From contig JAGLYV010000037.1 of NCBI GenBank assembly GCA_023131975.1, forward strand, positions 1 through 44,560: a stretch of 44,560 nt of DNA, given 5' to 3'. This document shows, piece after piece, positions 13,835-40,166 of this stretch. A model generated the notes under the pieces. That model was not told where the DNA came from. It worked only from the letters and a program-made list of their open reading frames with translations, and did not search any database. Position 1 is the first letter of the stretch. Every line of letters begins with the position of its first letter. Made by a program: the position numbers and the translations under genes. Source of the stretch: Candidatus Krumholzibacteriia bacterium (GTDB lineage: Bacteria > Krumholzibacteriota > Krumholzibacteriia > Krumholzibacteriales > Krumholzibacteriaceae).

Positions 13835-13863
13835 TTGACGAGAGTTCTATTCTATGGTATGAT
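13835..13863 (+). promoter_or_regulatory. Sigma-70 type promoter of the tandem paralogue locus
   Basis: TTGACG (13835-13840), exactly 17 bp, TATGAT (13858-13863). The expected transcription start is near 13869-13871. The longest reading frame of the next gene could be opened at the TTG of this -35 box, which is another reason to reject that start. Confidence 0.75.
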
Positions 13864-13867
13864 GCAA

Positions 13868-16800
13868 TCGAATCAGGTAGAACTTATAGCGCTTGAAATT
13901 ATCTTCACGTTGGGGGGAAGAATAATGCGAAAAGCGAAAGTATGCCTGTTGGTAGCCCTGTCTGCATTCTTCATCGTAGCTACAGTTTCAGCCAGGGAGA
14001 TCGACAAGCGCGGTCTTCGTCTCATGAAATCACTGCACGAAAACGAAAACCAGGAGTTCATCGACCAGGGAGCGAGAGGCCTGATGACGGCAAGTGCTGT
14101 CGACTCCTATTGCCTCGTCTGGTACGATTTCGAATCGATGAACTGGCAGGGTTGGACGACATTGGATAATACTGCAGATATCGATACTTTCTTTCATGTC
14201 GATGATTTCGCGGGGCTCGGTGGTGGAGATTATGGGGGACTCTACGCCCTGGAAGGCTCGAAATCGATGTGGTGCGGGACCCGGCCGGCAGAGGACGCGC
14301 GCGCCAAGGCGCCGTTCTGGTATCTCTGCAACTGGAACAACTTGCCCGGTTATGGGAACCAATGGAGACAGATGCTTACGACTGGGGCCTTTCCGATAGC
14401 GGGAATACTGACTCTTTCATATAAGGGGTATTTCGATTCAGAACCCGATTACGATCAGACTTACATTGAGTATGATTCAGGCGACGACAACTGGGTAGAG
14501 CTGGCGATGTATGACGGTACAGTCGATACTGTTGCTACACACACACTGCTTCTCAGCCAGGTCGCCACTAAGCTTCGTTTTCACTTTGTGGCTGACGGCG
14601 CATGGTCGGATCAGGATGGTCTGTGGGATACAGACGGTGCCTGTATTATAGACAGTATCAGGGTCGCAGATTCATCGGGACTGATTAATTTTGAGGATTG
14701 GGAAGGTGAGAGCCTCGACGTGCTTTCATCGGACGATGGATTCTGGTATGCCACTACGGAAGATGCATATGGCAGCTTTGCCGGCCTGGCTTCCGGTCTG
14801 ATATCCAAGGATCCCTGCGGTAATAACTTCAGGACCCAGGTCGTATTCTTCCAGGGCTCATCATACCCCAGCGCCGATTATCCCGGCCTGTTTGACACTC
14901 CGTTCTGCACGGGTCCCGGGGGAACATCGGCTCCCTGTCAGAACGAGTCTCTCCTGTCGCCGATTATCGAGGTAGACATGTACAGCAGCAACCGGGACGA
15001 ATTCCAGGACACCGCGATTCCTCCATCGGTGTTGCCGAATCTCGGAGGAACCGTTTTCAAATTCTGTGTAATGCGCGACCTGCCAGTTCAAAACCTTGTC
15101 TTCTATACATGGAGTGTCCGTGATGTGATCGATGGATGTCCCAGTCAGTGGATGGACCGTTCATTCGTCTATTACGGGTCCGATAAGGACTATATTCAGG
15201 CTTCCGCCGATATCAGCGATCTGGTGGGGGGACATCCCCTGCAGGTGGTGCTGGGAGTTGCCGATATGTGCGACGTCTGGTTCAACAGCTATGGAGACTG
15301 CGCTAACCATACCCCATCTCCCTGGTTCGACTCGGTGAGACTTTATAAATACGATACATCGGGACCCCAGTGGGCGCATCGTAACCTCGATATCTTCCAG
15401 GACAACTTCCCGACTGGACTCGATGTCGAGGGCTATATACGAATCGATATGGCCATGGATCTGAGGGCCAACGATGACCCCATCATCGACCCGGGTGATT
15501 CGGCCGTAGTCACCTGCTCAGCTCCTCTTGCTGGTGGACTTGATACCATACCTACGGGTGAGGAAATGGTCTACTGTCACGTATGGGCCGAGTATGTCGG
15601 TAACGATCTTGCCAAGCCGGACCTCTTCGGTTCGACTCTTGAAGGTACCTATGGTAGTTACGTCAGTGACGACGGTGCGCAGTGGACGATATTCCACATG
15701 CCGACGGCCATTACGAGTGCCGGCAATGAGGCTCAGGGCAAGTATATGATCGATCTCAACGACTCCCTGTTCACCAGGGGTTATGTGATTCATTATTACT
15801 TCAAGGCCTTCGATATCAACGGAGTGCCATCGACTCTACCCGCGGATGCCGAGATTGGTGGCAACATGTTTGAGATAACCTGTCTGCCTACGCTCAACAC
15901 CGGTATCCTCTACGTGGACGATTTCCACGGACGTGGAACGTTCGACGGAACGGTTCAGACCTATTTCGATCCCACGTTCTCTGCTGTAGTACCTGGCTCG
16001 ATGCCGGATCGTTATGACGTCAACAGCCCTTCCTCGGTCGTAGCCAACGGTCTTGGAAGCCGAGTAGGGTACGTCCTTCTTGGAGAGGTCTATGAGAAGA
16101 TCATCTGGGATTCGGGTAACCTGAGCATCGGAACCATCACCAATGGTATCGCGCATGGCGACAAGGTCGACGATGCTCAGTTGCTGGTCGACTGGCTGGA
16201 CAATTCAAGCCATAAGGTCGGTCTGTGGGTACTTGGTGACGATGTTGCGTACGATCTCTGGACGTCGCCTACCGCTTCAGCGCTGGCGCTTCTGAACGCT
16301 TGCGGTGTTACAATGGCGAGCCACGTGAACGACAGTTACTTTGAGCTCACCGGTGGCCGTGTGGCCGGCGGTGTCGTCACTCCTCTGGTAACTGGTCTTG
16401 GGATATATGCGGGTATTTCGTACTACGTGTTTGGTGGTTGCCCGATCATCAATGGTTTCGACGTGATCGAGATCACTGGTACCGGTGCCTATTCGCTGCA
16501 GTTGCCTGATTATCTTGGTACGCAGTACTATATCGGTATATCGAACAGCCAGCTGAACGCAGTTGCTGAGCCGATGCGCACATCGTGGATCGGCCATAGC
16601 TTCATGTATATCCGTAATGGTGACGGTGGCACGCTTGCCAGAAACGAATTGTTAAACGCTACCTGGGAGTTCTTCGTGAACGATGTCAATATTGGCATCA
16701 CTGGTGACGATCCTGTACCTGCGAAGTACGCGCTTATGCAGAACTATCCGAACCCGTTCAACCCGACTACGCGTATTCAGTTCAACCTGAAGGCCAAGGG

Positions 16801-16999
16801 CCAGGTCAGTCTGAAGATCTACAACGTAGCGGGCCAGCTGGTCAGAAGCCTGACCAACGAAGTCTGGGAAGCCGGATCGCATACGATAGACTGGAATGGC
16901 AGGAACGATCTCGGTTCGAGTGTGGCAAGTGGAGTATACTTCTACAGGATCGAGGCGGGCGAGTTCGAGAGTACTCGAAAGATGGTTCTTTTGAGGTAG
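13868..16999 (+). repeat. Tandem duplication, copy 1 (leader plus gene)
   Basis: Starts at TCGAATCAGGTAGAACTTAT, which recurs at 17000, and runs to the stop codon. The offset of leader and ATG is the same 3132 bp. The promoter (13835-13863) is not part of the repeat. Confidence 0.9.
13925..16999 (+). CDS. Large secreted protein with FlgD-like/type IX C-terminal sorting module (copy 1)
   Basis: 1024 residues. Signal peptide at about 1-23 (KVCLLVALSAFFIVATVSA). The first third contains a segment typical of secreted proteins of these phyla (YDFESMNWQGWTTLDNT...FHVDDFAGLGGGDYGGLYALEG) followed by jelly-roll-like strands with Asp-rich turns. The last roughly 85 residues are the sorting module: YALMQNYPNPFNPTTRIQFNL...VSLKIYNVAGQLVRSL...HTIDWNGRNDLGSSVASGVYFYRIEAGEFESTRKMVLLR. 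In Bacteroidota-like groups this module directs export through the type IX system and surface attachment. The ATG at 13925 is chosen because GGGGGGAAG precedes it and the signal peptide starts there; a longer frame would begin inside the -35 box. No catalytic residues recognised. It is nearly identical at both ends to the next gene. Confidence 0.85.
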   Translation: MRKAKVCLLVALSAFFIVATVSAREIDKRGLRLMKSLHENENQEFIDQGARGLMTASAVDSYCLVWYDFESMNWQGWTTLDNTADIDTFFHVDDFAGLGGGDYGGLYALEGSKSMWCGTRPAEDARAKAPFWYLCNWNNLPGYGNQWRQMLTTGAFPIAGILTLSYKGYFDSEPDYDQTYIEYDSGDDNWVELAMYDGTVDTVATHTLLLSQVATKLRFHFVADGAWSDQDGLWDTDGACIIDSIRVADSSGLINFEDWEGESLDVLSSDDGFWYATTEDAYGSFAGLASGLISKDPCGNNFRTQVVFFQGSSYPSADYPGLFDTPFCTGPGGTSAPCQNESLLSPIIEVDMYSSNRDEFQDTAIPPSVLPNLGGTVFKFCVMRDLPVQNLVFYTWSVRDVIDGCPSQWMDRSFVYYGSDKDYIQASADISDLVGGHPLQVVLGVADMCDVWFNSYGDCANHTPSPWFDSVRLYKYDTSGPQWAHRNLDIFQDNFPTGLDVEGYIRIDMAMDLRANDDPIIDPGDSAVVTCSAPLAGGLDTIPTGEEMVYCHVWAEYVGNDLAKPDLFGSTLEGTYGSYVSDDGAQWTIFHMPTAITSAGNEAQGKYMIDLNDSLFTRGYVIHYYFKAFDINGVPSTLPADAEIGGNMFEITCLPTLNTGILYVDDFHGRGTFDGTVQTYFDPTFSAVVPGSMPDRYDVNSPSSVVANGLGSRVGYVLLGEVYEKIIWDSGNLSIGTITNGIAHGDKVDDAQLLVDWLDNSSHKVGLWVLGDDVAYDLWTSPTASALALLNACGVTMASHVNDSYFELTGGRVAGGVVTPLVTGLGIYAGISYYVFGGCPIINGFDVIEITGTGAYSLQLPDYLGTQYYIGISNSQLNAVAEPMRTSWIGHSFMYIRNGDGGTLARNELLNATWEFFVNDVNIGITGDDPVPAKYALMQNYPNPFNPTTRIQFNLKAKGQVSLKIYNVAGQLVRSLTNEVWEAGSHTIDWNGRNDLGSSVASGVYFYRIEAGEFESTRKMVLLR

Positions 17000-19900
17000 T
17001 CGAATCAGGTAGAACTTATTGATGCTGGAAATTATCTTCACGTTGGGGGAGAGATAATGCTGAAAGCGAAAGTATGCCTGTTGGTAGCCCTGTCTGCATT
17101 TTTCATCATAGCTACAGTTTCAGCCAGGGAGATCGACAAGCGCGGTCTTCGTCTCATGAAATCACTGCACGAAAACGAAAACCAGGAGTTCATCGACCAG
17201 GGAGCGAGAGGCCTGGTGACGGCAAGTGCTGTCGACTCCTATTGCCTCGTCTGGTACGATTTCGAAACGATGAACTGGCAGGGTTGGACGACATTGGATA
17301 ATACGGCAGATATCGACACTTTCTTTCATGTCGATGATTTCGCGGGGCTCGGTGGTGGAGATTATGGGGGACTCTACGCCCTGGAAGGTACGAAATCGAT
17401 GTGGTGCGGGACCCGTCCTGCTGAAGACGCACGGGCCAAAGCGGCTTTCTGGTATCTTTGTGGCTGGAGCGATTCGCCCGGTTATGGGAACAAATGGAGA
17501 CAGATGCTGACGACTGGGGCCTTTCCGATAGCGGGAATGTTGACTTTTTCATACAAAGGATATTTCGATTCAGAACCCGATTACGACCAGACTTTTGTGG
17601 AGTATGACCGGGGCGACGGTGTCTGGGAAGAACTGGCCATGTATGGAGGACAGGTAGATACTGTAGCCACGCACACTATGCCGCTTTCTCAGGTAGCGAC
17701 AAAACTGCGGTTCCATTTTGTCTCGGACGGTGCCTGGTCGGACCAGGATGGCCTCTGGGATACAGACGGTGCCTGTATCATCGATGATATTCTTGTCGTC
17801 GATGGAACCGGTCAGATCAATGCTGAAGACTGGGAAGGCGAGAGCCTCGACGCGCTTTCATCGGACGATGGATTCTGGGTTGCGACCACAGAAGATGCAT
17901 ATGGCAGCTTCGCCGGTCTGGCTTCCGGGCTGATAGACAAAGATCCTTGCGGTGATAACATCGGGGCCCAGGTCGTCTTTTTCCAGGGATCCTCATATCC
18001 GAGTGCCGATTATCCCGGGCTGTTCGACACTCCGTTCTGCGCGGGACCCTTTGGAAATCATCCTCCCTGTCAGAACGAGTCTGTTATGTCGCCGATTATC
18101 GAGGTAGACATGTACAGCAGTAACCGGGACGAAGTCCAGGATACTGCGATTCCTTCTGCAGTGTTGCCGAATCTCGGAGGAACCGTTTTAAGGTTCTGTG
18201 TATATCGCGACCTGCCTCTCCTAAACTTCGTATTCTACACGTGGAGTATCCGTTCGATCGTTGATGGATGCCCCGGACAGTGGATGGATCGTAACTATGT
18301 CTACTATGGTGGAGACAAGGATTACATCCAGGTCAGCCAGGATGTCAGCGATCTCGTGGGGGTAAATTCCCTGCAGGTTGTAGTAAGCATTATTGACATG
18401 TGTGGTGACTGGGGAGGGTGGATCGGCTGTTCCACCCATACTCCTTCTCCCTGGTTCGATTCGGTGAGGCTTTACAAATATGACACGTCGGGGCCTCAAT
18501 GGTCGCACCGTGACCTCGATATCTTCCAGGATAACTTCCCTTCGGAAGAGTTCAATATCGAGAGCTGGGTACGCATCGACGCGGCCAACGATCTGAGGGC
18601 CAACGGTGATCCTGTCATCGATCCGGGCGACTCAGCCGTAGTCACCTGCTCAGCTCCTCTTGCCGGTGGACTTGATACTCTCGTTACTGGCGAGGAACAG
18701 GTCTATTGCCATGTCTGGGGCGAGTATGTTGGTTACGACCTTGCCAAGCCCGACCTCTTTGGTCCGACGCTTGAAGGTACCTACGGTACTTATGTAAGTG
18801 ACGACGGTTTCCAGTGGACGATTTTCCACATGCCGACGGCCATCACAGGCGCCGGTAACGAAGCCGAAGGCAAGTACATGATCGATCTCAATGACTCCCT
18901 GTTCACCAGGGGTTATATGGTCCATTACTACTTCAAGGCCTTCGATTTTGATGGTGCTTCGTCGACTCTGCCTGCGGACGCTGAGACAGATGGTAATATT
19001 TTCGAGGTCACCTGTCTGCCTTCGCTGAACAGCGGTACCCTTTACGTAGACGATTTCCATGGTCGTGGAACGTTTGACGGAACGGTTCAGACTTATTTCG
19101 ATCCTGCATTCGCTGCTGTACTACCTGGCTCGATGCCTGACCGTTATGACGTCAACAGCCCTTCCTCGCTCGTATCCAATGGTCCTGGAAGCCGAGCGTA
19201 TAACTTCCAGATGAACACCTACGAGAAGGTCGTCTGGGATTCAGGTAACCTGAACTCCGGAACGATCACCGAAGGTTCAGACTATAGCGACAAGAGCAAC
19301 GATTGCCAGTTGCTTCTTGACTGGATGAACCTTTCGGAGCATAAGGTCCGCCTGTGGGTACTCGGTGATGATGTTGCAGCCGATCTGGACGGATCGTTTG
19401 CTTCTTCGGCTCTCGGTCTTTTGAACGCCTGTGGTGTTGATCACGTGAACGACAGTTACTATGAGCTTACCGGTGGCCGTGTAGCTGGCGGTGTTGTCAC
19501 TCCCCTGGTGACCGGTGTCGGTATCTATGCCGGTATTTCGTACTACGCGTTTGCGGGTTGCCCGATCATCAATGGTTTCGACGTGCTCGAGATCACTGGT
19601 ACCGGTACCTATTCGCTGCAGTTGCCCGATTATCTCGGCACGCAGTACTACATGGGTGTATCGAACAGTCAGCTGAACTCAGTTGGCCAGTCGATGCGCA
19701 CATCATGGGTCGGGCACAGCCTGATGTATATTCGCAATGGCGACGGTGCCACGTTGGACAGGAACGCTCTTGTCTGCGCCACCTGGGAATTTTTTGGAGG
19801 CGCTGTCCAAGAAGACATCACTGGTGACGATCCAGTAGCGAAGTACGCGCTTATACAGAACTATCCGAACCCGTTCAACCCGAATACGACGATCAGGTTT

Positions 19901-20116
19901 AACCTTAAGGCCAAGGGCCAGGTCAGTCTGAAGATCTACAACGTAGCGGGTCAGCTGGTCAGAAGCCTGACCAACGAAGTCTGGGAAGCCGGATCGCATA
20001 CGATAGACTGGAACGGCAGGAACGATCTCGGTTCGAGTGTGGCAAGTGGAGTATATTTCTACAGGATCGAGGCGGGCGAGTTCGAAAGTACCCGAAAGAT
20101 GGTTCTTTTACGGTAG
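17000..20116 (+). repeat. Tandem duplication, copy 2 (leader plus gene)
   Basis: Begins one base after the stop of copy 1 with the same 20-bp leader sequence. It is 15 bp shorter overall, matching the five-residue difference of the proteins. Sequence after its stop codon is unlike that after copy 1. Confidence 0.9.
17057..20116 (+). CDS. Large secreted protein with FlgD-like/type IX C-terminal sorting module (copy 2)
   Basis: 1019 residues, paralogue of the preceding gene with the same signal peptide, domain order and sorting module (YALIQNYPNPFNPNTTIRFNL to KMVLLR). The first about 120 residues and the last about 80 differ from copy 1 at only a few positions, while the middle differs often (for example around residues 370-450 and 720-790). 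A two- to three-residue gap falls in LLNACGVDHVND (copy 1: LLNACGVTMASHVND). It has no promoter of its own type: only the transcribed leader was duplicated, so it is probably co-transcribed with copy 1 by read-through across the 57-bp gap. GGGGGAGAG precedes the ATG. Function unknown; surface exposure is inferred from the sorting module. Confidence 0.85.
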   Translation: MLKAKVCLLVALSAFFIIATVSAREIDKRGLRLMKSLHENENQEFIDQGARGLVTASAVDSYCLVWYDFETMNWQGWTTLDNTADIDTFFHVDDFAGLGGGDYGGLYALEGTKSMWCGTRPAEDARAKAAFWYLCGWSDSPGYGNKWRQMLTTGAFPIAGMLTFSYKGYFDSEPDYDQTFVEYDRGDGVWEELAMYGGQVDTVATHTMPLSQVATKLRFHFVSDGAWSDQDGLWDTDGACIIDDILVVDGTGQINAEDWEGESLDALSSDDGFWVATTEDAYGSFAGLASGLIDKDPCGDNIGAQVVFFQGSSYPSADYPGLFDTPFCAGPFGNHPPCQNESVMSPIIEVDMYSSNRDEVQDTAIPSAVLPNLGGTVLRFCVYRDLPLLNFVFYTWSIRSIVDGCPGQWMDRNYVYYGGDKDYIQVSQDVSDLVGVNSLQVVVSIIDMCGDWGGWIGCSTHTPSPWFDSVRLYKYDTSGPQWSHRDLDIFQDNFPSEEFNIESWVRIDAANDLRANGDPVIDPGDSAVVTCSAPLAGGLDTLVTGEEQVYCHVWGEYVGYDLAKPDLFGPTLEGTYGTYVSDDGFQWTIFHMPTAITGAGNEAEGKYMIDLNDSLFTRGYMVHYYFKAFDFDGASSTLPADAETDGNIFEVTCLPSLNSGTLYVDDFHGRGTFDGTVQTYFDPAFAAVLPGSMPDRYDVNSPSSLVSNGPGSRAYNFQMNTYEKVVWDSGNLNSGTITEGSDYSDKSNDCQLLLDWMNLSEHKVRLWVLGDDVAADLDGSFASSALGLLNACGVDHVNDSYYELTGGRVAGGVVTPLVTGVGIYAGISYYAFAGCPIINGFDVLEITGTGTYSLQLPDYLGTQYYMGVSNSQLNSVGQSMRTSWVGHSLMYIRNGDGATLDRNALVCATWEFFGGAVQEDITGDDPVAKYALIQNYPNPFNPNTTIRFNLKAKGQVSLKIYNVAGQLVRSLTNEVWEAGSHTIDWNGRNDLGSSVASGVYFYRIEAGEFESTRKMVLLR

Positions 20117-26017: not shown

Positions 26018-26108
26018 ATGACTCAAGCGATTCTGATTAGGCGGATGACATACAGGGTAAATCAATTTACGTGAAGATCCGTGCGTATGGACGTACCGGA
26101 AGGTGTTT

Positions 26109-26477
26109 ATGAAACGTATTTACCGTGGTGTCATTTTCTTTTTCCTGCCGGTCATGGCCGCCGTCATCGCAGTCTGTTCTCTGTCGGTTGCCGTAATGGC
26201 GGGAGATCCTGGACAGGCCGACTACAATTTCTCAGATTACATGGTTAACGCGGATCCAGGGGAAGATCCTCATCTGAAGATCGATCCAGGCACCAGTGAA
26301 TTTACCTTATATGACATCAGGACGGAATCCGCGCCGCCCGCTTCAAGTGGAAGTGGCCAGGATGCTATGCTCCGGGGGCAAGACAGAGCAGAAATGACGA
26401 CTGGCAGATGGTATTCCCGCGTGAACCCTAAATTCAGGATGGTCATTATGATGATCAGCTTGACGCTGACTCGCTAA
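26109..26477 (+). CDS. Small secreted protein of unknown function, possibly frameshifted
   Basis: 122 residues from the ATG at 26109 (GGAAGG is 5 bp upstream). It has a long signal peptide or membrane anchor (VIFFFLPVMAAVIAVCSLSVAVMA, about 8-32), then a polar, Asp/Gly/Pro-rich chain with no recognised domain. The last about 25 residues change character to a hydrophobic tail (RMVIMMISLTLTR), while the next frame reads NDDWQMVFPREP and then stops, which looks more like native sequence; a frameshift near 26380-26400 is possible. It is the first gene after a sigma-70 promoter and 20 bp before a TPR-containing sigma-54 activator, so it might be a peptide or envelope signal for that activator. That link is inference. 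Confidence 0.5.
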   Translation: MKRIYRGVIFFFLPVMAAVIAVCSLSVAVMAGDPGQADYNFSDYMVNADPGEDPHLKIDPGTSEFTLYDIRTESAPPASSGSGQDAMLRGQDRAEMTTGRWYSRVNPKFRMVIMMISLTLTR

Positions 26478-26497: not shown

Positions 26498-28996
26498 ATG
26501 CAGGTTCAAAAAGACGTACTGGAAAAATTACTGGTCGATATATACCATCTCAATGAGAGGTGCGACCACAGGCAGGCCTACCAGTGTTCCCTGGAAGCGG
26601 TCAGTCTGGCTGGGGAACCGGGCGTGGAAAGACCGCTCAGGTACCGGGTCGCGCTTGCCGCGGCGCGTTGTGCCTATTACCTCTCGCTTTTTGATGAATG
26701 TCTCAGCCATATCGATATGGTTCCTGATGTAGATGGAACTATAACGGATGTCAAACATTCCGATCCTGCCGGCACTCTGGATATTCCCGCGGCAGCCGTT
26801 ATTTTCGAAGCGCGAGTCATACGGGCCAATGTCGCGAGGAGACGCGGAGAGTTCGAGGACGCGATATCGATCCTTGACCGGGTGATTGAAGATGACGGGA
26901 ACGGGATTTCCTCAAGGTTGATCACCGACAGACTTCTTTCGAAAGGATCATGCCTGTACCTGCTCGGGAGACACAGTGAAGCCAGAGAGTACCTTGAAAC
27001 GGCATTGGGACTAGCCACCCATAATGACGATATTAGAGCCCGGTCGAGAGTCCTTGTAATGATGGGGCTGGTTTCGAGGACCATGGGATTTATGGATAAG
27101 GCTCTCGATTATTTCAAGCGGGCGAAAGATCTTTGCAGACAATATAACGATAATTACGCGGAAGCTGCAGCCTGGTTGAATGAAGGGGTGGCCCTGTATC
27201 ATCTTGGCAGGTTTGATGAATCAGAGAAAGCTGCCGTTCGCGCAAGAAGACTGTTCGGTAAAGTCGAATGGGTGCTTGGTGTATGCAGGACGCTGATCCT
27301 CCAGGGTAATGACAAGAGAAAATGCGGTGAATATTCGGGAGCCATCCGATGTTACGGGAAGGCCGGCGAGATAGCGGAAGCTAATGGTTTCAAGAGAGAG
27401 CTGGCTCTGACGCTGAACCTGATGGGAGCGATATCTGGCTCGCGGGGAGATCTCCCAGCCGCTTTGAAGTATCTGTCCAGAGCTCTGGGGACAATTTCCA
27501 GCGTAGCTCCCAATGGGGACGTCGCGTGTGACATCAGGCGCAGGCTGGGACTTGTTTTCCTTCTTCAGGAAAAATTTACGGAAGCTGAAAAGTATTTTGA
27601 ATCCGCCTTGAAAGATGCTGTCAAAGCGGATGATAAATGGTCTTCCGGCCTGATTCTAAGGGCCCGAGGGAGTAAAGAGTTCAGAATGGGAGACAGAGAT
27701 AAGGGGAAAGCTCTCTTTAATGACGCGATCGATCACCTGAGGGCTGGTGGATGCGTTCACGAGCTGGCCAGGACACACCTGATATTTGCGAACGAGCTTT
27801 ATAGTCTGGAAGGAAACGGATTCATGTCTCCTGACCCAGGCAATGGGCCGGATGTCGATAAAGCTCTGCATAGCCTCATCGAGGCCAGCCATCTCTTTTC
27901 GGGGACCGATGATGATAACAACAGGAAGATGACTGATCTCCAGTTGAAGAAGGTCCTTCGGTATAAGAGGAATTCAGATCTGATAAAAGTAGATCCGACG
28001 AGAGACAGGGATGTTCTGATTCTCGAAAAATCGCGGGATCTGTTTATCTCTGAAAAACTGGTCGCCGTGTCGGATAGTATGGTGGAGGTATGGAAGAAAG
28101 TGTCTTTCGCCTCCTCGTTCTCCCGGCCGGTCCTCATAACGGGAGAGACAGGGACGGGGAAGGAATTGATCGCGAGATTGATCCATGACAAAAGCGACAG
28201 GGTACACAAGCCGTTTGTCGCCGTCAATTGCGCCGCAATTCCGGATCACCTGTTCGAAAGCGAGTTTTTTGGTCACAAAAAGGGATGTTTCACAGGGGCG
28301 TTGACTGACAGGAAGGGATTCTTTGAGGAAGCTGACGGTGGAACGATATTCCTTGATGAGATCGGAGAGTTGACGCTGATTCAGCAGGTAAAACTTCTGA
28401 GAGTATTGCAGGAGAAGAAGATCAGAAAAATCGGTGAGAATATGGAGAAGCCGGTAGATTTCAGAGTCATATCTGCTACGAACAGGAGTGTCGAAGAGAT
28501 GGTCGGCCTTTCCGAATTCAGACAGGACCTGTATTACAGGATCAATATCGAGCATATTCATCTTCCCCCGCTGAGAACACGTCCTGAGGATGTGGTAGCC
28601 CTTCTGACCTGGCGTGTATGTGGTAACGGTAATGGTTCATCACGTAGAGTAAGGATAGAAAAGCTTGCCCTTGAGCGGCTGCAGAATTATATGTGGCCCG
28701 GTAATGTCAGGGAATTGATCTCGGTCGCCGACAGGGTAAATCATATGATCGACTCAGAGCTGATAACTGCCGATATGCTGCCCGAGAAAATAATGGGTGG
28801 TCCCGAGGTGTTCCCTGTCGGGGATTCAACTACCGCAAAGGTCGGAACAGAACATAGTTCCCTCAAAGAAAAGCTGAACAGAGTCATGTCTATATGCAGA
28901 GGCAACAAGTCTGCCGCCGCGAAATGGCTGGGAATATCGAGGGGAACACTCTACAAGGAACTCAGGCGAGCAGGGCTTGGACATTATATAAAATAA
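26498..28996 (+). CDS. Sigma-54 activator with long TPR N-terminus
   Basis: 832 residues. About the first 460 residues are tetratricopeptide repeats (for example SRVLVMMGLVSRTMGFMDKALDYFKRAKDLCR, AAWLNEGVALYHLGRFDESEKAAVRARRLF, ALTLNLMGAISGSRGDLPAALKYLSRAL, RLGLVFLLQEKFTEAEKYFESAL). The AAA+ sigma-54 domain follows: Walker A GETGTGKE at about 548-555, L1 loop GCFTGA at about 596-601 (Ala replaced by Cys), FLDEIGE, and GNVREL. A Fis-type helix-turn-helix ends the protein (CRGNKSAAAKWLGISRGTLYKELRRAGL). There is no receiver or GAF domain. GGAG is only 2 bp before the ATG, so initiation may depend on coupling to the small secreted-protein gene 20 bp upstream. Confidence 0.91.
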   Translation: MQVQKDVLEKLLVDIYHLNERCDHRQAYQCSLEAVSLAGEPGVERPLRYRVALAAARCAYYLSLFDECLSHIDMVPDVDGTITDVKHSDPAGTLDIPAAAVIFEARVIRANVARRRGEFEDAISILDRVIEDDGNGISSRLITDRLLSKGSCLYLLGRHSEAREYLETALGLATHNDDIRARSRVLVMMGLVSRTMGFMDKALDYFKRAKDLCRQYNDNYAEAAAWLNEGVALYHLGRFDESEKAAVRARRLFGKVEWVLGVCRTLILQGNDKRKCGEYSGAIRCYGKAGEIAEANGFKRELALTLNLMGAISGSRGDLPAALKYLSRALGTISSVAPNGDVACDIRRRLGLVFLLQEKFTEAEKYFESALKDAVKADDKWSSGLILRARGSKEFRMGDRDKGKALFNDAIDHLRAGGCVHELARTHLIFANELYSLEGNGFMSPDPGNGPDVDKALHSLIEASHLFSGTDDDNNRKMTDLQLKKVLRYKRNSDLIKVDPTRDRDVLILEKSRDLFISEKLVAVSDSMVEVWKKVSFASSFSRPVLITGETGTGKELIARLIHDKSDRVHKPFVAVNCAAIPDHLFESEFFGHKKGCFTGALTDRKGFFEEADGGTIFLDEIGELTLIQQVKLLRVLQEKKIRKIGENMEKPVDFRVISATNRSVEEMVGLSEFRQDLYYRINIEHIHLPPLRTRPEDVVALLTWRVCGNGNGSSRRVRIEKLALERLQNYMWPGNVRELISVADRVNHMIDSELITADMLPEKIMGGPEVFPVGDSTTAKVGTEHSSLKEKLNRVMSICRGNKSAAAKWLGISRGTLYKELRRAGLGHYIK

Positions 28997-29360: not shown

Positions 29361-29469
29361 TGGAACGCCCAGCCGGTATGGGGGGCGTTCCAGACAAAGA
29401 ACCATCGGGTTTCTACGGCGCCGCTCTGAGTCCCCCCATCGCAACAGCCGTAGACAGGGATGGTTCTTT
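29361..29469. other. Candidate structured non-coding RNA or regulatory element
   Basis: Three perfect inverted repeats lie in 109 bp: TGGAACGCCC (29361-29370) with GGGCGTTCCA (29383-29392); AAAGAACCATC (29396-29406) with GATGGTTCTTT (29459-29469); and inside it CTACGGC (29413-29419) with GCCGTAG (29447-29453). ATGGGGGG (29378-29385) can also pair with CCCCCCAT (29432-29439), which would break the first stem, so two alternative folds exist. The last stem ends in a T run. No known RNA family was recognised and the strand is unknown. Confidence 0.45.
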
Positions 29470-29784
29470 TGTTATCTGCCGCGTGGCACCTGTTCATCCT
29501 GTACATAACTGTCCAATCCTTTCAGATCTTCGTTATTCGTTATATGACCCATGATTGAGCGGGTTCGGAGAACATCCGAGAATTACATATATACAAAGCA
29601 TATATAAAATGATGCTTATTACTATCTAATTCAGCACTTAATTGCGCCTGTAATCCTCGCGTAGTCGCCGTAATATCAATTATAACACTGAGTTCTGGCG
29701 CACGGCGCTGCCGCAGGTATTTGCTTGCTGTTTTCGGCAAGGTTCCGGGTGCTGGACCCATTCTTGTAATACATATCATCAGGG

Positions 29785-29806: not shown

Positions 29807-30010
29807 TTGTTCATAAATGAGAATGGGGGAGTAGCGTTGGAAAAATGTTATGGAGGAAAAGATGAAAGTAGCACAAGCTGTCTTTACAGCAATTACGATC
29901 GCATGCCTGGTGGTCATTTACTCATGTGGCGAGAATACGACTTCAATAGAGACCGAACCGCCTGGTGCGGAAATCGACGGCTATACTGTCACTGTCGAGG
30001 AGAGAGGTGA
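29804..30010 (+). CDS. Possible upstream ORF overlapping the lipoprotein gene
   Basis: A 68-codon frame opened by GTG behind a perfect ribosome site. It overlaps the first 149 bp of the lipoprotein gene in another frame, so most of its residues (Cys-, Arg- and Trp-rich, no domain) are forced by that gene. It is either a translated regulatory leader or chance. Only the ribosome site supports it. Confidence 0.2.
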   Translation: MLFINENGGVALEKCYGGKDESSTSCLYSNYDRMPGGHLLMWREYDFNRDRTAWCGNRRLYCHCRGER

Positions 30011-30542
30011 AACATATCTTTCTGATCGTATTGAGAGCAGGGTATCCTATCCATTCTTCAGCCATGTGATAATCGAAAAGGGTTATCGGGTGTTTCCATC
30101 AGAGGCAGGTAGTTTCAGGGTGATCGATGATGCGTCTGGTGAGTTTTCAGATGTGACGATGATACCCTGCAGGCTGCCAGATGACGACAGTCGTGTTGCG
30201 ATGATCTATTACGTTGAAAATGGCGATGACTATCTGGTGTCTTCCGCGGAATATTTCAAGGATGAGGGATATGAGATCTCCCATCCGATCGATGATGAGG
30301 TCGAGGCGCTTATGAGAGCGAATGACATTCCGTATCCATGGAAAATGCCCATGGACAGAGATGAATCGACATCATCAAAATACTGGAAATGCGTCGGGAA
30401 ATACTCCGCCGCGGGATGTCTGGGTTGTGCTCTGAGGTGTTATCTCACCGGTCCCGGGTGGGCAGCATGCGTTACTGCATGCTGTTCGTCTGTGGTCGTG
30501 GTCGCGCTGGCAGCTTGTGCTTTCACCGTGTATGGGGGGTGA
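29862..30542 (+). CDS. Lipoprotein with Cys-rich halocin C8-like C-terminus
   Basis: 226 residues from ATG 29862 (GGAGG 5 bp upstream; an ATG at 29850 has no site). The N-terminus is a probable lipoprotein signal (VFTAITIACLVVIYSC, Cys 22; Tyr in the lipobox is unusual). Residues about 25-170 are a polar, strand-rich domain of no known family. The last 54 residues (173-226) are different: eight Cys with the spacing CLGCALRC...ACVTACC...AAC, embedded in Gly/Ala/Val-rich hydrophobic sequence and ending in YGG. This layout, a soluble N-terminal domain plus a small Cys-rich hydrophobic C-terminal peptide, is that of halocin C8-type precursors, where the N-terminal part can act as immunity protein. 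The next gene, 6 bp downstream, encodes a small membrane protein. The resemblance is by eye; it could also be a simple membrane-inserted Cys-rich tail. Confidence 0.6.
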   Translation: MKVAQAVFTAITIACLVVIYSCGENTTSIETEPPGAEIDGYTVTVEERGETYLSDRIESRVSYPFFSHVIIEKGYRVFPSEAGSFRVIDDASGEFSDVTMIPCRLPDDDSRVAMIYYVENGDDYLVSSAEYFKDEGYEISHPIDDEVEALMRANDIPYPWKMPMDRDESTSSKYWKCVGKYSAAGCLGCALRCYLTGPGWAACVTACCSSVVVVALAACAFTVYGG

Positions 30543-30548
30543 TCGGAT

Positions 30549-30902
30549 ATGTCCAGAAGCGGAAAACTATTTCTAGTGCTCTATCTGGTCGGGATACTGA
30601 TCATCTATTCCGGGTACGAGTTGGGTAGACGGGGGGTGAGTGAAATATATGCCGGTATGGTCCTGATACCTCTCTATGGGATAGTATCTGGATATATAGA
30701 ATTGTTGTTGAAAGGCGGTGGACAATCCAGAGAGACGGGCCGGCTGTTTATCGCCCTGTTTGTCGCTGGCATCTTCATCACTATGACGATAATTCTGGAA
30801 AAAAGCGGAGTATCGTTCTATTGGACCGGATTACCAGCATTGGCAGTAACTCTTGCTGTGATGTACAGATTGAGCAAGAAAGCCGGTCGGGGAGATACCT
30901 GA
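30549..30902 (+). CDS. Small four-helix membrane protein
   Basis: 117 residues with four hydrophobic segments (about 7-24, 34-54, 66-84 and 88-106), short basic loops and a basic C-terminus (RLSKKAGRGD). No family recognised. It starts 6 bp after the Cys-rich lipoprotein gene, so the two are surely co-transcribed; G-rich sequence before the ATG (GGGGGTGATCGG) serves as ribosome site. A role in immunity to, or export and membrane placement of, the Cys-rich product would fit the context, but nothing in the sequence proves it. It ends in front of a 26-bp palindrome that separates it from the convergent kinase gene. Confidence 0.65.
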   Translation: MSRSGKLFLVLYLVGILIIYSGYELGRRGVSEIYAGMVLIPLYGIVSGYIELLLKGGGQSRETGRLFIALFVAGIFITMTIILEKSGVSFYWTGLPALAVTLAVMYRLSKKAGRGDT

Positions 30903-30917
30903 TCGATTCATTGGAAA

Positions 30918-30943
30918 GGTGTGCCGGATCGATCCGGCACACC
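30918..30943. terminator. 26-bp perfect palindrome between convergent genes
   Basis: GGTGTGCCGGATC followed directly by its reverse complement (30918-30943), between the stop of the membrane protein gene (30902) and the stop of the kinase gene (30956). There is no good T run on either side, so it is a stem that may terminate weakly or protect 3' ends of both transcripts. Confidence 0.55.
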
Positions 30944-30955
30944 ATCATAAACAGT

Positions 30956-33900
30956 CTATTGCTTCAGTGCCCTGATCTCATCAAATACTCTTTTGCGGAA
31001 TGGAAGGGAAAGATATGACATCTTCATCTCTTCATCTGAGATCGATTCTGTGATCTGCTTGATAGTCTCGATAGCGTCCCTGTAATACATGGTGGCTGAA
31101 CTTATATCTTTTAAATCATGGTGCAGGATCGCCAGTTCTCTCTGAGCCTGCCAGGTGAACTCTCTCGTTCCCATCTTTCTGCTGGTCTTGAGGGCTTTCT
31201 GCAGGAGATCTTCCGCGTCATCCCGGTTTGTGATCCTGGCGAAACTCCCCTCCGCGAATAGGAGGAGGGGCTTGAGATAGTTACAATTGATCGTATCGAA
31301 GATATTGCGGGCCTCTTTGATGTGTTCGGCCGCCTTGTCGATCTGCCCGGCCTCGAGTTCGTATATCGTCAGGTTGGATAGAGCGTCGACGATATCATCC
31401 CTGTCATCGGATTTTCTGAACTGGGTGACTGCATCTTTGACATTACTGATCGCTGCGACAAAATCAAATTTCTGGAAGTGGAATCGTGACAGAATGAGGC
31501 TTCTATGCCCCAGCATGATTGAGTTTTCTTCAAGATCGCAGCCAGTTTTGAGCTTCTCAGAATATTCAATAATTTTGCCTGTGAAGTAGTCTCCCAATAA
31601 TACATAGATAATCAGTGGTTTCAGGTAAAAAGTCAGATGAAGGTCCTGTGCATCTTTTTCCGAGGCGATAGTATGAGCTTTCCCTAAATATTCAAGAGAA
31701 AAGCTGTAATTGGCGAGAGCGCAGTAACCACTTGATAAGTTCAACAAGGTTAATATTGAATAAGCGGACATTTTTAGTCTCTCAGAGAGAGCCAATGCGT
31801 CATTAAGGGTAGAGATCATATCGAAGTATTCACCCTGTATATAGTGGAACCCGCCGATCTTCTGAAGGTCATGAACGATGTTGATACTGCTGGATGTGGA
31901 TCTTGATAATTCTATTGTGGAGTACATAAATTTCTTTGCGTTATCGTAATCACCATTATAAAAGGATATTGCGTAAAGTTTGTGCAGGGCAGACCTTCTG
32001 GCCCATGGCGCCAGGTCTTCCCTTTTCAAATAGTCTCGTAATGTCTCTATATTAGAATCCAGTTTGTCGATATTTCCGGCGAGCTTCTGAAAATATATAT
32101 AATTTGAAAGCGCAAAAACATATAAGTCATTATTTGTGGAGTTGGAGAGTGCCATCGCCTGTTCAAACAGACTGCTGCGATCTTGCATTTTTTCAGTACC
32201 AGCCATCAATATCATAAGTTCCGCTATGAGGTCATTGTCTTCTATCTCTTTTGCTAGAGTAAGGGCCTTTTCATAGTTCTTGATGCCATCTTTTTGTTTT
32301 GAAAGGTAGAGGTCATAGATATATCCCATATCTTTTAAGTATGTAGCTTTCTTTTTTACATCTGATGTTCCGGGGATAAGAATCTTGTAATGTTCAATCA
32401 CTTCGGTAAATAAACCAATCGATTTCTCGGTGAGAACGAGTCGTTCCAGGACCATGTCAGAATTGCTTTCATCCACGGAGCGAGACACAAGCGAATACAG
32501 CGATGATAGAAGTTCGTACGCTTCGTAGAAGTTCAGGGACGTAATCAGGCGGTCAGCGGCGTCGAGTCCAAATTTCAGACTCTCTTTAATCGATTCAGCC
32601 TCGATATAATGGGCTGCGATATCTCTAAGACTATCGGGGTTGTTAGTCTCGAGATATGACGCGATGGATCTATTTATTCTGACAATCTCCTCGCGTGAAG
32701 CGCCGACCCTCGCTTGCGCCCTGAGAGAGGGACTGATAAAGTCGATTACCCCGCCTGTGTCAGTAAGAATATTGTCGTTTATCATGGAATCGATCGAGGG
32801 CTTGACTATATCAGCGGACAGGTCAGATACGGTCGATAGAGTCTCAGCGGAGACGGGGTTGTTGAAGTATGCGAAGTACAATAATACTTCTCTCTCGTGA
32901 GGTTTGAATCTGTCGATATCAAAACTGGTCATATCGGTGAAAGAGAGCGACACGCTGTCAGTCTTGAACCTGTTATGATCGATCAGCCAGCTTTTGTTGT
33001 TATGATAGATAACGTTCGAAGCGATCATATGGCGTAGTAACTTGTCCAAGTATAAAGGTAGCCCTCGGGTCGCATCGTATATGATCCCGTATTCTCTTTC
33101 GGTGAACAACTCGTTCCCCAGCATCTCTTCATAGAACTCTTTTGTCTGGTCCTTCGTCAATGGGGCGAGGGTTTGCTGTTCGAGGCATGGCAGAGCCATG
33201 AGCTGATCGAGAGACTCTTTCTTCAGAGCGGGGACAGAAATATCATTGCCGTGTGAAATCATGATTAAAACACGGGACCCGAGCAGGTCCGTTTCATACA
33301 CCAAGTGAGATACGAACCTGATAAAGTATATGTCGAAAGAGGAGATATCGGGAATAGAGATCAATATTACCTGTTTCTCCGACAGCTTATGAAGAAATTG
33401 CACGATATTGTCGAAGATGATGACTGACTGGTCGACCGTCGATGCCGATCCGGGGCCTTCGTCGAGAGATAAAGATTGTACGATCTGTTCGTGTGAGGAG
33501 AGTAATCTGTCTTTTTCATCTCCGAACAGGTTATTCCCCAGCAATTTGATGAATACATCCAACGATCCGTCCGCGGATAAGGTTTTTGAGCAATTTATCG
33601 TGATCAGATTCAGGGTCTGCGCGTGGGTCGATATCCTGTCGATTATTGTCCTTTTGCCGACACCTGTACTTCCATCTATCAGTATAGAGTTGGAGTCATC
33701 GCTGTCAGGAGTGATGAATTTTTCCAGAAAGGCCATATCATCATCACGGCCGATAAACACATTGCTTTTTATTATTGGAACGGTGTCTGAAGATTTTGAG
33801 ATATCCTGTATCAATCGGATACAGTGGCCAGCATTTTCGGGTCTCATGCCAGGGTCCGATTGAATCAGGGAGATGATCATCGAGGTCAGCGATGAGGGGC

Positions 33901-34600
33901 TGGGGATTCCCGATTCCATCAGCCTCGAGATCATGGAGTCGGAGATCTCTCTTCTGAGGTCGTCGTCTATGTTCATTGCCATAGGGATATCGATTCCGGA
34001 AAGACATTCTGCGATAGTAATGCCTAATGCGTATAGATCGCTCTTGATCGAGTACGAATGATCTTCGAGTATCTCGGGGGCGATGTATCTCGGAGTGCCG
34101 GAGATTTTCGTGATGATGTCACTTTTCATCATGGCCATTCCGAAATCCAGCAGAAGGGGCCTTGGGGTATTTTCGTCGGTTTCTGAGATCATGATGTTCT
34201 CGGGTTTTATATCGGCGTGGATGATATCCTTCTCATGAAGATATTCCATGGCAGAGAATATCGAAGAGAGGATATCATGAAGATACACATACTTTTTCTG
34301 ATCAGAAAAGAAATCCCTGATATTCTTCCCCTCGACATAATCCATCGAGTAATAGGGAGTATCATTCTGTATAAAGCCGAAATTATGGACCTTGATAAGA
34401 TTCGTGTGGTCCAGGTCAGCTAGGATCTTGAACTCAGCCTTGAATGTTTCGTCCGTGATATCATCAGCAGACAGAAGCAGCTTTACGGCGACTTCCCGGT
34501 TCAGAATAGAGTCGTGGACCCTGAATACCCTGCCGCTCACTCCGGACCCAAGTGTTTCCAGTATTTTGTATCGGCCGGGAAGATTGATCTTTTCTATCAT
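30956..34600 (-). CDS. Ser/Thr protein kinase fused to AAA ATPase and TPR array
   Basis: 1214 residues. The N-terminal Hanks-type kinase domain is about 8-265: Gly loop GSGVSGRVF (18-26), VAVK with Lys 40, HADIKPEN (catalytic Asp 130; the usual HRD Arg is Ala), DFG at 152-154 in LLLDFGMAM, and GTPRYIAPE (168-176). An AAA-type ATPase follows: Walker A DGSTGVGKRT near 309-318 (Arg where Ser/Thr is usual) and a Walker B-like SVIIFDN near 390. From about 640 to the end there are many TPR-like helices. This kinase-ATPase-TPR order is known from large bacterial signalling kinases. No membrane segment. It has a near-leaderless promoter directly before the ATG and is preceded by a terminator. Substrates are unknown; the neighbouring sigma-54 activators are possible targets. 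Confidence 0.9.
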   Translation of the reverse strand: MIEKINLPGRYKILETLGSGVSGRVFRVHDSILNREVAVKLLLSADDITDETFKAEFKILADLDHTNLIKVHNFGFIQNDTPYYSMDYVEGKNIRDFFSDQKKYVYLHDILSSIFSAMEYLHEKDIIHADIKPENIMISETDENTPRPLLLDFGMAMMKSDIITKISGTPRYIAPEILEDHSYSIKSDLYALGITIAECLSGIDIPMAMNIDDDLRREISDSMISRLMESGIPSPSSLTSMIISLIQSDPGMRPENAGHCIRLIQDISKSSDTVPIIKSNVFIGRDDDMAFLEKFITPDSDDSNSILIDGSTGVGKRTIIDRISTHAQTLNLITINCSKTLSADGSLDVFIKLLGNNLFGDEKDRLLSSHEQIVQSLSLDEGPGSASTVDQSVIIFDNIVQFLHKLSEKQVILISIPDISSFDIYFIRFVSHLVYETDLLGSRVLIMISHGNDISVPALKKESLDQLMALPCLEQQTLAPLTKDQTKEFYEEMLGNELFTEREYGIIYDATRGLPLYLDKLLRHMIASNVIYHNNKSWLIDHNRFKTDSVSLSFTDMTSFDIDRFKPHEREVLLYFAYFNNPVSAETLSTVSDLSADIVKPSIDSMINDNILTDTGGVIDFISPSLRAQARVGASREEIVRINRSIASYLETNNPDSLRDIAAHYIEAESIKESLKFGLDAADRLITSLNFYEAYELLSSLYSLVSRSVDESNSDMVLERLVLTEKSIGLFTEVIEHYKILIPGTSDVKKKATYLKDMGYIYDLYLSKQKDGIKNYEKALTLAKEIEDNDLIAELMILMAGTEKMQDRSSLFEQAMALSNSTNNDLYVFALSNYIYFQKLAGNIDKLDSNIETLRDYLKREDLAPWARRSALHKLYAISFYNGDYDNAKKFMYSTIELSRSTSSSINIVHDLQKIGGFHYIQGEYFDMISTLNDALALSERLKMSAYSILTLLNLSSGYCALANYSFSLEYLGKAHTIASEKDAQDLHLTFYLKPLIIYVLLGDYFTGKIIEYSEKLKTGCDLEENSIMLGHRSLILSRFHFQKFDFVAAISNVKDAVTQFRKSDDRDDIVDALSNLTIYELEAGQIDKAAEHIKEARNIFDTINCNYLKPLLLFAEGSFARITNRDDAEDLLQKALKTSRKMGTREFTWQAQRELAILHHDLKDISSATMYYRDAIETIKQITESISDEEMKMSYLSLPFRKRVFDEIRALKQ

Positions 34601-39791: not shown

Positions 39792-40166
39792 CTATTCCTT
39801 TTCTTTCAAGGCTTCGAGGTTTCGATATTCCATGTAGCGGGCACCTTCCAGCTGTCCGAAGAACAGGGCCAGCCGGTCGAAACATGGTTCGATCCTTTCA
39901 CCGAAATCTTCCTTCATGATCTCGCCTATGCGCCCGACAGTTCTTTCTCCGTCGCACAGGGTCCATACCGCGCTGCCAATATCGTCAAGAACCCACCTTG
40001 TGACCTTCTTTTTTGCCCTGCTACCGAGGAGAGCTTTCATTATCCTGCCGACCTTTCTCGGCGCGATGATCGTCACAAGCCCGTCGTCTCCGGTCTCATA
40101 TTCCATGAGCCGGCTCGGGATCAGTTCCAGAAGGTTGACTTCGGTGGGCTTATCTTTCTTCTTCAT
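39792..40166 (-). CDS. PqqD-like protein (RiPP recognition element fold)
   Basis: 124 residues. The central part RWVLDDIGSAVWTLCDGERTVGRIGEIMKEDFGERIEPCFDRLALFFGQLEGARYMEY matches the PqqD family (PF05402), the winged-helix fold that binds leader peptides of ribosomally made, modified peptides. An N-terminal extension of about 55 residues (NLLELIPSRLMEYETGDDGLVTIIAPRKVGRIMKALLGSR) is also typical of stand-alone members in FCB-type bacteria. No radical SAM enzyme or precursor peptide is next to it. It converges on the 39180 lipoprotein gene with a 12-bp gap. Fold assignment is good, a role in peptide maturation is open. Confidence 0.8.
   Translation of the reverse strand: MKKKDKPTEVNLLELIPSRLMEYETGDDGLVTIIAPRKVGRIMKALLGSRAKKKVTRWVLDDIGSAVWTLCDGERTVGRIGEIMKEDFGERIEPCFDRLALFFGQLEGARYMEYRNLEALKEKE

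Follow-up and report, generated by a model that had tools for sequence, protein, structure and literature searches.

A lipoprotein with a cysteine-rich hydrophobic tail and a small membrane partner in an exchangeable slot of Krumholzibacteriota: a candidate peptide toxin and immunity pair

The Krumholzibacteriota are a little-studied, mostly uncultured bacterial phylum. The stretch of DNA analysed here (the window) comprises 44,560 nucleotides of contig JAGLYV010000037.1, part of the metagenome-assembled genome of a Candidatus Krumholzibacteriia bacterium, and its central features, listed in Table 1, are the gene for a lipoprotein precursor and that for a small polytopic membrane protein behind it. 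The initial annotation had described a lipoprotein with eight Cys in its last 54 residues, followed after 6 bp by a membrane gene. Translation bears out the coordinates, the number and the spacing of the Cys (residues 177, 186, 189, 193, 203, 207, 208, and 219), and the gap, since the lipoprotein stop codon ends at 30542 and the next ORF runs from 30549.

Table 1. Features of the locus and related loci elsewhere; coordinates without a locus label are those of the window.
Feature	Position	Strand	Basis
Small secreted protein directly preceding the regulator; ADPGEDPHL motif invariant	26103..26477	+	alignment; conserved SRV..K near C-terminus
Regulator (TPR, sigma-54 activator, Fis HTH); borders the slot in the family	26498..28996	+	Pfam; synteny
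Conserved structured RNA element between regulator and lipoprotein	29397..29470	+	alignment, pair counts, model search
Likely ribosome-binding site GGAGG for start at 29862	29852..29856	+	read from sequence
Lipoprotein precursor CDS, 226 aa, 8-Cys hydrophobic C-terminal tail	29862..30542	+	translation; orthologues in G008, G010, G012, G013
Lipoprotein signal peptide, residues 1-22, to lipobox Cys22	29862..29927	+	S21-C22 invariant in five orthologues
N-terminal (periplasmic) domain, residues about 60-145	30039..30296	+	alignment; no known family
Predicted hairpin helix 1, residues 170-194	30369..30443	+	AlphaFold of tail and full-length model
Cys-rich hydrophobic tail, residues 173-226	30378..30539	+	alignments; tail profile
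Predicted hairpin helix 2, residues 200-225, hydrophobic	30459..30536	+	AlphaFold of tail and full-length model
Small polytopic membrane protein CDS, 117 aa, putative immunity partner	30549..30902	+	translation; hydrophobic segments; positional counterparts
Ser/Thr kinase, ATPase and TPR protein; closes the slot	30956..34600	-	Pfam; synteny
Other RNA element copies (and others)	L014:7052-7138, L015:7307-7392, L082:3749-3836		
Other RNA element copies, continued	L084:10887-10972	-	
Gly-tail lipoprotein loci	L085:3862-5159	+	
Gly-tail lipoprotein loci, continued	L084:9465-10488, L104:1013-2313, L105:1168-2325, L108:496-1722, L110:1203-2289	-	
Gly-tail lipoprotein loci, continued	L102:1471-2662, L103:1480-2625, L107:784-2115		

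The signal peptide ends in a lipobox, which reads VVIYSC22 in the window protein and GSC, ISC, VSC, and VSC in the aligned orthologues. The N-terminal domain finds no match in Pfam or NCBIfam and adopts an alpha/beta arrangement in a low-confidence AlphaFold model of the full-length protein (mean pLDDT 51, poor outside the C-terminal hairpin described below). The gene is present in 5 of the 20 genomes of the Krumholzibacteriota family (window, G008, G010, G012, and G013). Alignment of these five orthologues reveals that all eight tail Cys, the YW ahead of the first Cys and a GP.W turn are invariant; neither loss of the Cys pattern nor absence of the tail was encountered. Between genera, identity amounts to 45-60% in the tail, 31-44% in the N-terminal domain, 18-49% in the membrane partner and 42-51% in the neighbouring regulator; the tail is thus the best conserved part of the lipoprotein.

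Four remoter homologues are found in another family of the class. A full-length profile recovered those of G075 (4.1e-6) and G079 (1.6e-4), and a tail profile that included these two then recovered G074 (1.6e-14) and G078 (2.9e-6). They too are lipoproteins, wherever the start is visible, and they possess a six-Cys core of the form C-x(9-11)-CxxxC-x9-CxxxC-x(10-11)-C, from which the counterparts of Cys186 and Cys208 are both absent. Between the two groups, the N-terminal domains show a weak relationship (hhalign E 5e-4, probability 31%). No further genome among 387 sampled carries the tail at E≤0.001. There is one significant tail-profile match per genome, and in the window genome this single match is the present locus.

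AlphaFold modelling of the tail, carried out with four sequences, predicts two helices with a mean pLDDT of 87, connected by a turn at residues 195-199; the same hairpin appears in the full-length model. The Kyte-Doolittle maximum (2.33, residues 203-221) falls in helix 2. In the window protein the core Cys are arranged with mirror symmetry, the residue numbers 177 and 219, 189 and 207, and 193 and 203 each adding up to 396, and the axis falls on residue 198, a Pro within the predicted turn. Such symmetry is required of a hairpin held by three nested disulfides, from which we surmise the pairs 177-219, 189-207, and 193-203; the structure prediction itself provides the helical hairpin, and the pairing is read from the Cys positions. 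The joint absence of Cys186 and Cys208 from the distant proteins fits a fourth, lineage-specific pair, so that a disulfide 186-208 is probable. No match to VKOR was found in the window genome.

The membrane partner was originally described as a four-helix protein. It is polytopic, and four helices are plausible, with four hydrophobic segments in the G010 partner by the Kyte-Doolittle method; the fourth helix is uncertain in the window protein, where three segments exceed the threshold. A search for the gene pair in other genomes recovered positional counterparts at four other loci of the window family and at three of the four loci of the distant family, in which a hydrophobic protein of 64-70 aa is encoded right behind the tail gene. 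In G078 no small membrane ORF follows the tail gene, and the partner in G079 has just one clear segment. Between orthologous loci, partner identity falls to about 20%. As a control, 90 ORFs of at least 200 residues from the fetched loci, some of them perhaps spurious, were scored for a following ORF of 50-130 residues with two or more membrane segments and a start between -20 and +120 nt from the stop codon: such a partner stands behind 8 of 10 tail proteins and behind 0 of the 80 other ORFs, where two Gly-rich tails missed by the script pattern were added by hand and the one-segment partner of G079 was scored as absent. The occurrence of a lipoprotein with an eight-Cys tail beside a small membrane gene is confirmed as real, and exceeds chance because the eight Cys are invariant among orthologues, six recur in distant homologues and no control ORF is paired.

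The place of the Cys-tail gene, with the regulator on one side and the kinase on the other, is an exchangeable slot, which is a new observation. The Cys-tail lipoprotein and membrane gene fill this slot in the window, G008, G010, and G012, while the contig of G013 breaks off within the membrane gene. G014, where a CorA-like gene lies on the other strand, and G015 have no such pair, and the contigs of G006 and G007 end too early to show the content. In G005, and in G004 directly behind the regulator, the slot is taken by a different lipoprotein, whose hydrophobic tail is rich in Gly and Ala and which is accompanied by one or two small membrane genes. The G004 and G005 proteins are homologous to each other (E 1e-13), unrelated to the Cys-tail lipoprotein, and matched by nothing in Pfam or NCBIfam. 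A profile of this family finds more relatives across the phylum, and at the loci read, a membrane ORF of 80-125 residues stands behind the full-tail copies in G010, G014, G012, G034, G027, G029, and G025. Both kinds of cassette are present in G010 and G012. The Gly-tail lipoproteins listed in Table 1 carry a G.LHNE-like motif, and each has a small polytopic membrane protein behind it.

All 13 near-complete genomes of the family contain a match to the small protein with the ADPGEDPHL motif, which is found together with the TPR-sigma-54 regulator. The structured RNA element spans about 75-80 nt and consists of a terminator-like outer stem (AAGAACCAUC / GAUGGUUCUU) with a U-run and an inner stem (CUACGG/CCGUAG) that shows compensatory changes; its CCCCCC-TCGC loop (CCCCCCAUCGCGCAAC) is invariant. 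The element is single-copy in the window genome, and a model search places it in 14 of 20 genomes of the window family and 5 of 5 of the sister family; no Rfam family matches it. Since it is kept where the lipoprotein is absent, the element is a neighbour and not part of the cassette; it may be a small RNA, or a terminator whose loop is conserved. No convincing sigma-54 promoter was seen 5′ of the lipoprotein gene at any of the five loci.

Family profile searches matched the pair to no known toxin or immunity family, PADLOC defence models matched neither window protein, and searches of defence and phage families with the pair found nothing. No relatives were detected among viral contigs and phages, and Foldseek returned no significant match to the full model or the tail in the PDB or among viral structures. 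No dedicated exporter or protease adjoins the two genes. A RiPP cluster was considered and rejected, as there is no modifying enzyme nearby and genomes that lack the lipoprotein retain the PqqD-like gene (39792 in the window) as well.

The initial annotation had compared the lipoprotein, by eye, with halocin C8 precursors. Judged from the sequences, this resemblance is real at the level of plan, with one sequence intermediate: like the halocin C8 precursor (TIGR04449, NF040679), the window protein is a single secreted polypeptide with an N-terminal domain and a C-terminal hydrophobic, Cys-rich peptide. It differs in being bacterial, in having a lipobox instead of a Tat signal, in carrying eight Cys (six in the distant relatives) in about 54 aa versus ten in about 70-76 aa, and perhaps in its N-terminal domain, for which no relation was detected. 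In halocin C8 the C-terminal peptide is freed by proteolysis and is antimicrobial, and immunity comes from the N-terminal part. The ten-Cys pattern extends over about 69 positions of TIGR04449, and the window tail shows another spacing. Tat export is a trait of the halocin C8 precursor, ProC8 (PMC11509114); the window signal peptide contains no twin arginine. A profile search of residues 173-226 against TIGR04449 (halocin_C8_dom) gave no match, for tail or whole protein, at E≤10, nor was there one anywhere in the window genome. Alignment of window-type tails with true halocin C8-like tails by hhalign failed (E 0.33-0.44), and the N-terminal domain compared with that of the halocin C8 precursor (HalI) yielded E values of 0.37 and 0.14 from shallow alignments.

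The intermediate is a 211-residue protein encoded on the Natrinema plasmid NZ_CP082247.1 (L090:1707-3663), which shares the six-Cys core spacing and the GPGW turn with the window protein. Searches by tblastn reach it at E 3 with the window tail and at E 0.009 with the G013 tail, 82% of which is covered, and it is the sole plasmid record that recurs with two different tails. The tail HMM gives it 28.9 bits, a score attained by 0 of 1000 shuffles; shuffles in which the Cys stayed in place reach 23.2 bits, and thus Cys spacing carries most of the signal. Against TIGR04449 the same tail aligns over positions 1-69 of 69 with 22.7 bits, just below the membership cut-off of 24 bits. Small membrane ORFs that lack annotation and an S8 peptidase flank the Natrinema gene, itself halocin C8-like. 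In several annotated halocin C8-like loci, too, a small membrane gene follows directly; in Halobacterium salinarum and Haloferax larsenii it is a hydrophobic 68-aa ORF about 20 nt downstream. The combination of lipid anchor and membrane partner had been thought new: the anchor is a real difference, but the partner is also seen behind halocin C8-like genes. At the Halobacterium salinarum (L092:1533-3010) and Haloferax larsenii (L093:1526-3005) loci a divergent 75-aa ORF upstream and the 68-aa ORF downstream are both conserved and hydrophobic. The halocin C8 query sequence used was one that we take to be correct, its matches to annotated halocin C8-like genes supporting it, though not every letter. 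Weak TIGR04449 matches in other Krumholzibacteriota were rejected: the two that were read are due to chance (an ORF antisense to another gene and an unrelated large protein), and several others contain internal stops. A match on a Pseudarthrobacter plasmid was discarded, the annotated protein being without a Cys tail. To say that the window protein works like a halocin C8 precursor is reasonable on its architecture, Cys conservation and the Natrinema intermediate; given the TIGR04449, hhalign and Tat results, that it is one is at most a candidate identity.

A patchily distributed, exchangeable pair that joins a lipid-anchored protein bearing a Cys-rich or Gly-rich hydrophobic hairpin to a fast-changing small membrane protein is most simply accounted for by a membrane-active peptide with its immunity protein. 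We put at about even probability that the two genes are a cassette of the toxin-and-immunity type, encoding the lipid-anchored precursor of such a peptide and the protein that protects against it. The lipoprotein would be exported by Sec and, judging from the signal, anchored through Cys22; in the oxidising envelope its last approximately 54 residues would form a pair of hydrophobic helices, joined by nested disulfides. Proteolytic cleavage in the variable linker may then free the hairpin, or the cell may present it at its surface; it may act on the membranes of competitor cells, with the membrane protein encoded 6 bp downstream protecting the producer. The producing cell would in this manner retain the peptide until it is released or employed on contact. 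It counts against a toxin that the Cys-type tail is better conserved than the sequence around it; toxins engaged in arms races often vary. More tentatively, and with a probability clearly below even, the Krumholzibacteriota may harbour a phylum-wide set of two-gene cassettes that can replace one another. Each would combine a small membrane immunity protein of its own with a lipid-anchored protein whose end is a short membrane-active peptide, and these peptides would be of several unrelated types (a Cys-laddered or a Gly-rich hairpin); the cassettes would constitute a bacteriocin-like weapon, surface-displayed and not secreted, that is partly common to haloarchaea.

The main rival is a non-toxic envelope complex in which the stapled hairpin is an assembly or membrane-association domain, the membrane protein a permanent partner, and the lipoprotein held at both ends. 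The hydrophobicity of helix 2 suffices for a membrane segment, the tail is strictly conserved and its pairing with a membrane protein regular; we nevertheless regard this complex as rather unlikely, in view of the patchy presence (5 of 20 family genomes), a slot also used by unrelated tail lipoproteins, partners diverging to about 20% identity, and the recurrence of the same core in a haloarchaeal protein near the halocin C8-like family. That last protein, which matches both sides, is also what speaks for a true but very divergent halocin C8 family member shared with bacteria, the precursor plan and peptide fold being the same and the Cys register changed, as does the order of N-terminal domain, Cys peptide and downstream small membrane gene in Halobacterium and Haloferax. 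With no TIGR04449 match, hhalign failing for tails and giving E 0.37 for N-terminal domains, ten Cys in halocin C8 as opposed to eight or six, and no Tat signal, such membership is improbable.

Conserved neighbours on both sides might instead indicate a signalling pair in which the lipoprotein, or the peptide once released, reports the state of the envelope to the TPR-sigma-54 activator or the Ser/Thr kinase. The regulator, the small secreted protein and the kinase remain in G014 and G015 without the lipoprotein, however, and the distant family has the tail pair without that regulator, which makes signalling decidedly improbable. Finally, the C-terminal position and the hydrophobic segment are reminiscent of a sorting signal such as PEP-CTERM, a reading that is highly unlikely and largely refuted by the single copy: sorting tails occur on many proteins, versus one significant match per genome here, and the end of the tail has no basic cluster.

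Among other systems, plant alpha-hairpinins (CX3C-Xn-CX3C) are hydrophilic four-Cys defence peptides with two helices stapled by nested CXXXC disulfides; the likeness to the window tail is convergence at most. A resemblance also exists between Gly-rich class II bacteriocins, which are leader-processed free peptides, and the hydrophobic tails, rich in Gly and Ala, on the alternative slot lipoproteins (G004, G005, and others), for which no family match was found. The polymorphic lipoprotein toxins SitA of myxobacteria, with the cognate immunity gene (SitI) in the operon, likewise form exchangeable cassettes (PMC8546572, PMC5562445), and the window pair is similar to them in its lipid-anchored precursor, marked as such by lipobox Cys22, its variable C-terminal part and its exchangeability. 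SitA combines a conserved escort domain of approximately 375 aa with a C-terminal toxin domain (PMC8546572), longer than the whole window protein of 226 aa; its toxin domains are of the nuclease type and are delivered by outer-membrane exchange, with TraA/TraB as the machinery (PMC8546572, PMC5562445), whereas the window tail is a short hydrophobic hairpin with a polytopic partner, and no sequence relation is claimed. A word search of the open-access literature found no paper on bacteriocins or lipoprotein toxins in Krumholzibacteriota. If the preferred toxin-and-immunity reading is true, lipid-anchored peptide weapons and small membrane immunity proteins exist that Pfam and NCBIfam miss, and they would be a source of short, disulfide-stapled peptide scaffolds; the Natrinema match would join a bacterial and an archaeal peptide lineage.

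Several further features of the window deserve mention. Five sigma-54 activators of different architecture lie within 22 kb (20198-42048), beginning at 20198, 22621, 26498, 35566, and 40456, the last recognised by eye. Two tandem, very similar secreted proteins of approximately 1020-1050 aa (13835-16999 and 17057-20116) appear by eye to end in a FlgD-like, sorting-type domain. The PqqD-family protein (39792-40166, minus strand; Pfam E 7.6e-7) has no evident radical SAM partner in the window, and ORFs similar to it are kept in G014 and G015. Between the convergent membrane and kinase genes lies a perfect 26-bp palindrome, GGTGTGCCGGATCGATCCGGCACACC, at 30918-30943.
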